From IMG/VR virus record IMGVR_UViG_3300010413_000164, positions 1 to 24,780 of that record: a stretch of DNA of 24,780 nt; one strand, written 5' to 3'. Positions 21,399 to 24,697 of this stretch are shown piece by piece. The notes beneath the pieces are model-generated. The model saw nothing but the letters and a program-made list of their open reading frames with translations, had not been told where the DNA came from and searched no databases. Numbering within the stretch: position 1 is the stretch's first letter; each line of letters starts with the position of its first letter. Both the position numbers and the translations under genes were made by a program. This stretch comes from a virus.

Positions 21399-22199
21399 AT
21401 GGGTTTAATAACATGTGGGCCTGGAGGTAGTACTACAGCCGAAGTATTTACTGCGATTAATGAGGCTGTGCTTAAATCTTGGGAGTCTGCTGCAGCTCAA
21501 ATGACTTCAGCAAGTTATGCTATTGAGCCGTACGGTGTAGAAGTAAAAGTATATACTTCAAATGGGGATGGAACATTTACAGCCACTCCTCAGGTAGGTG
21601 TATATTCTGCCCTGCATCATGACACTGATGCCGCAACATCTGCTAGTAACGCTGCAACTTCTGAATCTAATGCTGCAACATCAGCAAGTAATGCTGCTAC
21701 TTCAGAATCTAACGCAGCAACAAGTGCTTCAAATGCTGCTATTTCTGAGTCTAACGCAGCAACAAGCGCTTCAAATGCTGCTACGTCTGAAACTAATGCT
21801 GCTACGTCTGAATCAAATGCTGCAACATCAGCAAGTAATGCTGCTATATCAGAAACTAATGCTGCATTATCATATGATAATTTTGATGACAGGTATCTTG
21901 GGGCTAAAGCTTCTGATCCTACATTAGATAATGATGGGGATCCATTATTAACTGGGGCACTCTATTGGAATACTTCAGCTAATGAGATGCGTGCATATGA
22001 TGGAGTATCGTGGAATGCTATTACTGCGGCTGGGGCAGTTGGTGGAGGTGCAGATAAAATATTCTGGGAAAATGACCAGACTGTTACAGCTGACTACACT
22101 ATTACTTCTAGTAAGAATGCAATGACTGCTGGAGATATTACCATCAATACTGGAGTAACTGTAACAGTTCCTACTGGTGTTAGATGGGTAATTGTTTAA
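21399..22199 (+). CDS. Tail fibre with heptad-repeat shaft
   Basis: This 266-aa protein has a short N-terminal attachment region (1-78), then 11 near-perfect heptads of the form ATS(A/E)SNA (residues about 79-155), a degenerate twelfth, then YLGAKASDPTLDNDGDPLL and GALYWNTSANEMRAYDGVSW. These last segments are a common collar module of phage fibres. The end, with TADYTITSSKNAMTAGDI and PTGVRWVIV, is a widespread fibre C-terminal module. It is probably a trimeric fibre or tip spike. AGGAG lies ahead of the ATG at 21399. Confidence 0.85.
   Translation: MGLITCGPGGSTTAEVFTAINEAVLKSWESAAAQMTSASYAIEPYGVEVKVYTSNGDGTFTATPQVGVYSALHHDTDAATSASNAATSESNAATSASNAATSESNAATSASNAAISESNAATSASNAATSETNAATSESNAATSASNAAISETNAALSYDNFDDRYLGAKASDPTLDNDGDPLLTGALYWNTSANEMRAYDGVSWNAITAAGAVGGGADKIFWENDQTVTADYTITSSKNAMTAGDITINTGVTVTVPTGVRWVIV
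21633..21863 (+). repeat. 21-bp coding repeats in the fibre shaft (11 copies)
   Basis: Eleven in-frame 21-bp units encode ATSASNA-type heptads. Copies mostly alternate Ala/Glu at position 4, so the effective unit is often 42 bp. Synonymous drift between copies shows the array is old in parts. Such arrays change length by slippage or recombination. Confidence 0.9.
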
Positions 22200-22208
22200 G
22201 GAGATAAC

Positions 22209-22607
22209 ATGGCTGGAACAATTGTAGCCGGAACTATTTCAGACGGGACTGATATAAGTCCTGTAACTGATGTCGTCAAAGGTAGTGCTAGAGCTTGGGT
22301 TACATTTAATGGTACATTAGTAAATGCTACAGCAGATTTAACAGGTGTAACCAGTTCGTATAACATATCAAGCGTTGTTGATAATGGTACTGGTGATTAC
22401 ACTATAAATTTTACAAACCCATTAGCTGATGGCTACTATACATGGTGCATAGGAAGAAATGGCAATGATACAGATCTTAACAGGGTTCATGCCCCCTACC
22501 TTATATCAAGGAGTGATGTCCATATTAGGATAGCAATGCCTGTTGATAATAGTTCATCATACAGTAGAGATGATCCTTATTCTGTATCAGTAACAATTTT
22601 TAGATAA
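22209..22607 (+). CDS. Tip-associated small protein, paralogue 1
   Basis: This 132-aa beta-rich protein lacks a membrane segment. It shares a domain with two later genes (22831 and 23444): an ARAWVTFNGT segment, then VDNGTGDYTINFTNPLADGYY, closing with VSVTIFR. The shared core is known in phage tail proteins as a small beta module ('AWVxFxGT...DNGTGxYxxxF'). It probably sits on a fibre or tip. It follows the heptad-repeat fibre by 9 bases, with a good SD. Confidence 0.72.
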   Translation: MAGTIVAGTISDGTDISPVTDVVKGSARAWVTFNGTLVNATADLTGVTSSYNISSVVDNGTGDYTINFTNPLADGYYTWCIGRNGNDTDLNRVHAPYLISRSDVHIRIAMPVDNSSSYSRDDPYSVSVTIFR

Positions 22608-22619
22608 AAAGGAGAAAAA

Positions 22620-22829
22620 ATGAGTATAATTATTTTTACGCAAGATGAAGGTTTGACTATTTCAGTCATTCATCCAGCACCAGGAGTTCAAATTACTGAT
22701 TGTGTTGGGGCAGTACCTGAGGGAGCTAAATATAAATTTGCATTAACCTCAGATATACCAACAGATAGATTATTCCGTGAAGCTTGGGAAGTTACTGTTG
22801 ATGCGACGTGGGTTGTAAAAGGAGCCTAA
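22620..22829 (+). CDS. Small protein resembling N-terminal half of a tail/fibre accessory protein
   Basis: This 69-aa protein contains SVIHPAPGVQI, VPEGAKYKFALTSDIPTDRLF and REAWEV. From recall, this pattern (xDlPtDRxFRnAWe) is the first half of a phage protein of about 140-150 aa whose second half carries RDPLLxxxD...EKQRLRDLP. That second half is present here as a separate gene (23203-23442), with a tip paralogue in between. A complete stop ends this gene at GA*. AAAGGAG precedes the ATG. The role may be fibre or tail assembly; function is not established. Confidence 0.65.
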   Translation: MSIIIFTQDEGLTISVIHPAPGVQITDCVGAVPEGAKYKFALTSDIPTDRLFREAWEVTVDATWVVKGA

Positions 22830-22830
22830 T

Positions 22831-23193
22831 ATGGCAGGTAATATTACTTTTGATGGTTGGATGAATGATGATGGCTCTGAAAACTTTAAATGCCGTGCGT
22901 GGGTAAACTTCGATGGTACAGGAACTGTTGCAATTCGTAATTCTGGAAACGTTTCAAGTATCACTGATAATGGTACTGGGAACTATAGAGTTAATTTTAT
23001 AAACAGTATGCCAGATACAAACTACGCGACAATATATTCACATAACGCAGCACAGTCAGGTACAACTAATGTTGAGGGAGGTATGTACTCAGGAGCTGGA
23101 GGACAGCTGGTTGATAGTGTACCTATATTAGTTGAGCTGGCTAATGGATCTGAAATAGATCTCGTGTATAACTATGTGACCATATTTAGATAG
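22831..23193 (+). CDS. Tip-associated small protein, paralogue 2
   Basis: This 120-aa beta-rich protein begins 1 base after the stop of the 69-aa gene. It shares the CRAWVNFDGTGT segment, then ITDNGTGNYRVNFINSMPDTNY and a VTIFR end with paralogue 1 (22209), and more distantly with paralogue 3 (23444). It separates the two halves of the putative accessory protein. A small receptor-facing or fibre-decorating module is likely; the binding target cannot be told. Confidence 0.72.
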   Translation: MAGNITFDGWMNDDGSENFKCRAWVNFDGTGTVAIRNSGNVSSITDNGTGNYRVNFINSMPDTNYATIYSHNAAQSGTTNVEGGMYSGAGGQLVDSVPILVELANGSEIDLVYNYVTIFR

Positions 23194-23202
23194 GGAGAAA
23201 TA

Positions 23203-23442
23203 ATGATACAAATTAATCAGGTAAAAGCTGAAGCTATTACACAAGAACGGATCAGAGCATATCGTGATCCTCTATTAATAGAGCAGGATGTGTTAGTACA
23301 GCGGGAACTAGAAAAGCCAGCTGTAGATCAAAATATGGCCGCTATTGTTGCTGAAAAGCAGAGATTGAGAGATCTACCAACATTAGCTGTTGGAAAAACC
23401 GTAGCAGAACTTGCACAGCTCCATATAGATTTAGGACTATAA
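23203..23442 (+). CDS. Small Phage_tail_APC-like protein (C-terminal-half homologue)
   Basis: This 79-aa, fully helical protein has RIRAYRDPLLIEQDVLVQR, then VAEKQRLRDLPTL, the recurring pattern of the tail assembly chaperone-like (APC) family, RDxLLxxxD...yRqxLRDlP. It resembles the second half of a longer protein whose first half matches the 69-aa gene upstream. GGGAG precedes the ATG, and the stop is 1 base from the next ATG. Whether it acts as a fibre or tail chaperone is inference. Confidence 0.7.
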   Translation: MIQINQVKAEAITQERIRAYRDPLLIEQDVLVQRELEKPAVDQNMAAIVAEKQRLRDLPTLAVGKTVAELAQLHIDLGL

Positions 23443-23443
23443 T

Positions 23444-23803
23444 ATGAGTTCTGTAATTAGAGGTGGAGACAACTTTGATAGTTCCACCAGAACAACTGCT
23501 TGGGGAGTAATCGATGGAGCAACTGGAGCAACTGCTACTCTTCTAGCTGGTTATAATGTTGGAACTGTAACTAGGGTAGCAACTGGGCAATACACAGTAG
23601 CATTTAGTACGCCATTAGCTAGTGCTAATTATAGTGTTTTATTTTCAGTAAGGCATGAAGGTGGGACAGATGGACGTCAGGCAATATTAAGTAACCTCGC
23701 TGGGACTTTTACAACTAATGGTTTTCGTGTACATATTCTAAATCTTGCAGCCTCAGCAAATTTGGATGCTGATTATATTTCATTTCAAGTAATTGGTGGT
23801 TAA
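23444..23803 (+). CDS. Tip-associated small protein, paralogue 3
   Basis: This 119-aa protein is a divergent member of the same small beta module as 22209 and 22831. It keeps TTAWGVIDGATGA, then TRVATGQYTVAFSTPLASANY, but ends FQVIGG in place of VTIFR. It starts 1 base after the stop of the APC-like gene, so it is probably translationally coupled. A role as a small tail-tip or receptor-binding component is likely but not shown. Confidence 0.68.
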   Translation: MSSVIRGGDNFDSSTRTTAWGVIDGATGATATLLAGYNVGTVTRVATGQYTVAFSTPLASANYSVLFSVRHEGGTDGRQAILSNLAGTFTTNGFRVHILNLAASANLDADYISFQVIGG

Positions 23804-23834: not shown

Positions 23835-24221
23835 ATGAGTTTTTACTACCCATCAAATTTGCCAGAACCAACAATAACTGGAAATAATATGGATGTTGGA
23901 CAATCATTTACCAAGGTGGAGTTTGATTCTGGATTTCGTTATAGAAGATCCGCTAACTCCCCAATGATTTTAGAATTTGCCTTTCAGATTATTAGTCATA
24001 CTCAGATGAATGAGTTTATAGATTTTTATCATAGGTATTTACAAAGAGGTGTTCAACCTTTTTATGCAACTTGGGAAGTTAGTGGTTTTTCTAGTCAGAA
24101 GTTATTTAGGTTTGCTGATGCTCCATCAGTGGTAAATCTAAAAGGAAACTTATATGCTGTTACAGCTAAATTTGAATTGCATACTACTATTGCTGAGATG
24201 ATTGCAGCTGACCCGATTTAA
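23835..24221 (+). CDS. Small tail-region protein, paralogue A
   Basis: This 128-aa protein shares its layout with the next gene. It starts YPSNLPEPTITGNN, has FIDFYHRYLQRGVQPFYATWEV at mid-length (about 60-81), LFRFADAP and a closing beta part VTAKFELH. It has no cysteine motif, signal or membrane segment. The pattern (PxLPxPxxxGNN ... F.xFY...L..G..PF.A.W) occurs among small siphophage tail proteins; I cannot name the family with confidence. A clear AAAAGGA lies before the ATG. Confidence 0.7.
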   Translation: MSFYYPSNLPEPTITGNNMDVGQSFTKVEFDSGFRYRRSANSPMILEFAFQIISHTQMNEFIDFYHRYLQRGVQPFYATWEVSGFSSQKLFRFADAPSVVNLKGNLYAVTAKFELHTTIAEMIAADPI

Positions 24222-24232
24222 AAGGACTAATA

Positions 24233-24697
24233 ATGGCTATAGTTTATCCAACAACTTTACCTAAACCGAATGTTTCAGGTAATAATACAAAAACTACTCC
24301 TACCTTCTTACGGTCTGAATTCTTGTATGATATTCAACAACGTGGTATTTTTGGGGAAACAGTTTCAGTTACTTTCACATTTTTATGTGAGTCTAGAGAT
24401 GTTACTAAAGCATTTCTTAATTTTTATTATACGGATCTAAATAATGGCATTTTACCATTTGAAGCAGATTGGCCTGTTTACGGAAATACGGCAGTAAAGA
24501 CTTTTAGATTTTCTGAGCCAATCTCTATGTCTGCTGAAGGTTTAGGTATTTATACAATTTCTTGCCAGTTTGATATTTCTGAAAATATTAACGAGATTAT
24601 AAACTATGATATCTTACTGAGTGAGTTTACTATTAATTATGATATGACTTCAGTTATTACAGTTGGAGATACTGTTGTTATTGAGAATGGAGCATAA
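24233..24697 (+). CDS. Small tail-region protein, paralogue B
   Basis: This 154-aa paralogue of the preceding gene keeps YPTTLPKPNVSGNN, FLNFYYTDLNNGILPFEADW, TFRFSEP and TISCQFDISE, and adds about 25 residues at the C-terminus (from about 128). Identity to paralogue A is modest, implying an old duplication. It lies 11 bases after A, with an AAAGGA SD. It is probably a structural subunit of the tail tip; function is not known. Confidence 0.7.
   Translation: MAIVYPTTLPKPNVSGNNTKTTPTFLRSEFLYDIQQRGIFGETVSVTFTFLCESRDVTKAFLNFYYTDLNNGILPFEADWPVYGNTAVKTFRFSEPISMSAEGLGIYTISCQFDISENINEIINYDILLSEFTINYDMTSVITVGDTVVIENGA

Follow-up and report, generated by a model that had tools for sequence, protein, structure and literature searches.

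Two small genes near one end of a viral DNA fragment are separated by a gene for a tail fiber tip. The locus raises the question of whether the two genes, here called N and C, encode halves of one protein and, if so, how the tip gene came to lie between them. The window, that is, the whole stretch of DNA analyzed, has the length of its virus record (24,780 bases). It represents a fragment of a tailed phage, with genes for the large terminase, portal, head protease, major head protein, and minor tail proteins followed by a fiber region. In the 3′ part of the window, the gene order on the plus strand is fiber, T1, N, T2, C, T3. The fiber gene (21399..22199; phrog_38058, tail fiber protein, E 3.6e-37) encodes 266 aa with an SNAATSA repeat shaft and lies upstream of the tip array. 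T1 (22209..22607; 132 aa; phrog_11355, E 3.7e-13) is a stand-alone tip immediately 5′ of N and scored 5e-26 with the T HMM, for which it was among the seeds. N (22620..22829; 69 aa) carries a VP..DIPTDRLFREAW motif, and the residues V P R F R A W of N are invariant across 11 relatives. As the earlier sequence-only reading had noted, N and C are separated by a tip paralogue: T2 (22831..23193; 120 aa; phrog_11355, tail fiber protein, E 4.4e-20) has the leader MAGNITFDGWMNDDGSENFKCR, and its AlphaFold model is all-beta (pLDDT 77). Comparison of the tip with solved structures gave no significant match. C (23203..23442; 79 aa) is followed by T3 (23444..23803; 119 aa; phrog_11355, E 1.2e-11), which has a leader of the VIRGGDNFDSS class. 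Both halves are complete genes, each with its own start, stop, and Shine-Dalgarno sequence (AAGGAG 5′ of N and GGGAG 5′ of C). The Shine-Dalgarno sequence of T2, AAAGGAG, falls within the last codons of N.

The sequence-only reading took the 69-aa and 79-aa products to be the two halves of one phage protein of about 150 aa. HMMs for N and C were built from 29 fused relatives, with the window left out. These fused-only models matched window N at 56.5 bits (E 5.2e-17) and window C at 39.4 bits (E 1.6e-11), while the best scores from 50 shuffled frame sets were 8.7 and 7.5, respectively. Across the window, they gave no further real match beyond N and C. At the level of sequence, the resemblance of both halves to the fused relatives is greater than chance would give and shows homology with single-chain proteins. 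Both window halves belong to the N+C fused tail accessory family as defined here. Existing families cover the pair in part. C matched phrog_20196 (E 7.8e-10), an 88-aa family of unknown function that also matched 20 of the 29 fused proteins but covers only the C half. PF16778 (Phage_tail_APC, phage tail assembly chaperone protein) matches C and, in fused proteins, the C-terminal region; window C scored 18.6 bits, under the curated cutoff of 26.6, while a fused relative (L150) scored 27.3 bits, above it. Comparison of N with Pfam and PHROG matched no family, and a single-sequence search of viral contigs with window C gave no match.

Such a single-chain protein does exist. At least 32 distinct fused open reading frames (ORFs) were found in viral contigs and one prophage-like contig, and the complete ones are 130 to 163 aa long. 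The prophage-like contig (L113) encodes complete N and C in one ORF of 163 aa; among the matches listed, the 31 further distinct fused sequences come from viral contigs. The isolate Synechococcus phage S-CBP42 encodes a 160-aa fused homologue (AGK86665.1; G8EYC3) directly 3′ of an annotated tail fiber gene; this locus resembles the window in placing the homologue behind the fiber but differs in that the protein is a single chain with no tip gene inside. Microcystis phage Mel-JY33 and HMO-2011 have ORFs that join a DRTFRGAW-type motif to the C domain, and these motif-fused ORFs adjoin a larger upstream gene bearing an N domain. In HMO-2011 (L102), a long row of stand-alone putative tail fiber or tip genes surrounds the motif-fused helper, a layout similar to the tip arrays seen here. 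One phage (L073:1928-3889) carries two tandem tip-helper cassettes, one with a fused and one with a split helper. The C parts of the two copies are 90% identical (60/67) and the N parts about 40%; therefore, C moves between fused and split genes.

Gene orders were compared across relatives, using the best 80 loci per query, so that class counts are not unbiased frequencies, and the A3 scan favors fused forms. Among the matches listed, with this biased sampling, 231 distinct instances comprised 161 with N and C adjacent and split, 32 fused, 15 with a T-family tip between N and C (the window included), 14 with a longer gap (5 HMO-like motif-fused and 9 true inserts, including L005 and L033), and 9 without a detected C. 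When ranked by the window's own N, 77 distinct instances among the matches listed comprised 56 adjacent, 6 fused, 3 N-tip-C, 8 with another insert, and 4 without C. Split and adjacent is the commonest form in the sample, and the usual order is tip-N-C; of the 215 instances among the matches listed in which this could be tested, 213 have N immediately 3′ of a tip. In 107 of 159 adjacent pairs among the matches listed, the two genes overlap by 4 nt (ATGA), with C in another frame, and in 13 of the 159 the halves share a frame with one stop between them, as in cyanophage NATL2A-133. Vibrio phages 1.009.O and 1.077.O also have the split form. That the arrangement is unique to this phage was considered and rejected: among the matches listed, a tip lies between N and C in 14 further distinct instances, and another insert in 9. 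A different order, C, tip, N, was seen in L060:2388-3549, where a 60-aa ORF of unknown kind lies 5′ of C.

What fills the slot between N and C varies from phage to phage. In the window it is occupied by T2, with the leader GWMNDDGSENFKCR; elsewhere, tips of the T2 leader class lie before N (L027, L030, L031, and L037) or after C (L001). Tips with leaders of the class VVSDNFETSTGAIP fill the slot in one contig group. VIRGSDNFDS-class tips fill it in L043, L052, L075, L076, L092, and L093, most with a partner gene of 96 to 102 aa; in the window, the VIRGSDNFDS-type leader class is represented by T3, after C. Among named phages, Vibrio phage 1.052.A (MG592433; L005) likewise has a tip gene between N and C, but the tip is of another family (Gp53-like C, PF21882, 30.7 bits), with a similar VIRGVDEFDS leader. 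Endonuclease genes also occur at this site. In L033:3613-4047, an HNH_3 endonuclease ORF lies exactly in the N/C junction, and in L211:2744-3728, a C stub of 17 codons is followed by a 231-aa NUMOD3 homing endonuclease ORF and then by a restarted C with a replaced start. L201 and L202 are nearly identical and have identical N proteins, and in L201 the interposed tip is reduced to a 28-codon leader; the tip body is gone, C is kept, and the halves are still separate. The varied tips, the endonucleases, and the loss of the tip body in L201 show that the slot is in repeated use and in motion. Behind VIRGSDNFDS-type tips in L018 (4654-4938) and L036 (4192-4485), a second small protein of about 95 aa (RAKAYPSLTEQADMAYWDRQNGTTTLDDAI) is encoded. 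It perhaps represents another tail fiber helper family, and it matched no convincing Pfam family.

The tips themselves appear to consist of two parts with different histories. In the N-tip-C group, median leader identity was 77 to 78% within a slot and 32% across slots, while tail identity was 23 to 24% whether within or across slots. T1 of L199 and T2 of L211 have tails that are 80% identical though they occupy different slots. Outside the N-tip-C group, tails at least 65% identical are common to stand-alone tips and fiber ends with unrelated leaders. Comparison of these sequences thus shows exchange of leaders and bodies, and the pattern fits a role for the leader as an address and for the body in receptor binding. 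Slot-specific leaders with exchangeable bodies provide a concrete, testable model for how phages may change receptor specificity.

For structural comparison, a fused relative (L116) was modeled with AlphaFold (pLDDT 94.4, pTM 0.81). The model shows a small beta/alpha N domain followed by two long helices, and from these helices the C half of the window is predicted to form a long helical hairpin. A Foldseek comparison with viral models returned G8EYC3 of S-CBP42 as the closest (E 2e-9), followed by tail fiber assembly protein U of Erwinia phage Hena1 (A0A6B9J8B7; E 5e-3, prob 1.00) and DUF4376 proteins (E 0.04, prob 0.9), with moderate TM values of 0.4 to 0.5 for the protein U and DUF4376 matches. 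No solved structure matched the fused model significantly in either sequence or fold searches. The position of the pair agrees with that of intermolecular tail fiber chaperones (Tfa, gpU, gp38, and V22 gp27), whose genes lie directly 3′ of the fiber or tip gene. With the fold neighbors, the PF16778 score of L150, and the position behind a tip, N and C are best read as forming a putative tail fiber chaperone.

The known systems resemble the pair in some respects and differ in others. Gp27 of Alteromonas phage V22 is a proven chaperone that is required for an active fiber (PMC7289586). The Alteromonas chaperones, V22 gp27 and A5 gp9, are encoded by a small gene directly behind the fiber gene and combine a beta part with an alpha-helical body (PMC7289586, PMC10579305); these chaperones are thought to cap the fiber (PMC10579305). 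Unlike N and C, they belong to the DUF4376 family and are single chains. The assignment of V22 gp27 to PF14301 (DUF4376) was confirmed, and PF14301 matched none of the 29 fused proteins. No sequence link to V22 gp27 was found; hhalign of the profile A5 against gp27 gave a probability of 1%. The Mu-type protein U of Hena1 is a fold neighbor of the fused model but at a TM of 0.5 and 16% identity.

How the tip gene came to lie between N and C has two possible answers, both raised by the sequence-only reading: an insertion split one gene, or the halves were separate from the start and became fused elsewhere. The latter fits better, given that adjacent split pairs predominate among the matches listed, that most of them overlap by 4 nt, and that fused forms are scattered. 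The former, in which a tip gene split a fused ancestral gene whose halves later gained their own start and stop signals, draws on the existence and wide scatter of fused forms and on a tree of N alone, which with a midpoint root differs from the N+C rooting in placing fused forms at the base. The N+C tree, midpoint-rooted and with modest supports, implies 11 changes of the fused state, most of them gains of fusion by split forms, which is consistent with repeated fusion. The clade of the concatenated tree that holds the window's N-C pair contains 91 rows, and 71 are adjacent split, 15 N-tip-C, and 5 fused. The sister lineages thus mostly keep N and C separate rather than continuous in one ORF, a fused gene that the tip could have interrupted is absent from the close relatives, and in the window the genes on either side of the tip are complete. 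Most adjacent pairs among the matches listed have the ATGA overlap in a different frame, the slot accommodates tips whose leaders belong to several unrelated classes, and in L201 the halves remained separate after loss of the tip body. Taken together, these data make splitting of a fused gene very unlikely. The window's pair clusters with other N-tip-C phages, at a weak support of 35, and the T2 leader of the window is unrelated to the leaders of those phages; a single old interposition followed by exchange of the tip may account for this, or interposition may have occurred twice.

The locus fits best as a split-gene member of a tail fiber accessory family whose gene junction carries a tip cassette; the same kind of rearrangement is seen repeatedly among relatives. 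We consider it probable that N and C form a two-piece accessory that most likely works as an intermolecular chaperone, in the manner of Tfa, gpU, and gp38, and that the tip cassette entered a two-gene junction without cutting an ORF. In some phages the accessory is a single chain of about 140 aa with a small beta domain and a helical body; in most, it is divided into two small products whose coupled genes immediately follow a fiber tip. In the window's phage, the same two pieces are encoded by two genes that flank a tip gene, and their assembly into an N-C complex after translation would still be expected. Distances among N and among C proteins correlate in every class (rho 0.52 for the N-tip-C class, reached in 0 of 200 permutations), a correlation that partly reflects common descent. 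It also bears on a distinctly unlikely alternative, that the halves have parted functionally, with N serving tip 1 and C serving tip 2, so that tip-N-tip-C amounts to two tip-plus-helper pairs. Each tip in N-tip-C phages indeed has one half directly behind it, in L014/L016/L018-type phages a third small protein is encoded behind the next tip, and the L036-type insert between N and C consists of a tip with its own 96- to 102-aa partner. Most relatives, however, have one tip followed by both halves, and at least 32 fuse the halves; L201 has kept C even with no tip body between N and C; and the N and C distances are still correlated in N-tip-C phages, which argues against such a parting. The main rival, itself unlikely, is that N and C remain in the virion as components of the fiber tip, where they would form an adhesin or cap comparable to Mu gpU or S16 gp38 instead of, or in addition to, acting as transient chaperones. 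The tail fiber accessory proteins of Mu and S16 remain attached, in contrast to that of V22 (PMC7289586), and a place behind the tip fits both readings. The conservation of N and C beside variable tip bodies suits a helper better than a receptor binder.

The tip gene sits at the junction of two complete genes. This junction is best read as a site at which tip cassettes come and go and change order, each cassette having a short, position-specific leader and an exchangeable body; homing endonucleases lie alongside in some relatives. A broader model, possible but on balance doubtful, is that the genes of a two-subunit chaperone flank an exchange slot in which the leader acts as a docking address and the body is swappable; homing endonucleases would drive tip turnover, and one fixed chaperone would serve changing tips. 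The fused, coupled, and separated forms of the same accessory make a natural set for testing how much of a fiber chaperone needs to be one chain. The unannotated pair lies beside receptor-binding tips in many aquatic phages, and names and coordinates for it should aid in finding and delimiting those tips. Downstream of the tip array in the window, two neighboring paralogues (23835-24697) both match the same part of the phrog_384 profile, annotated as a virion structural protein.
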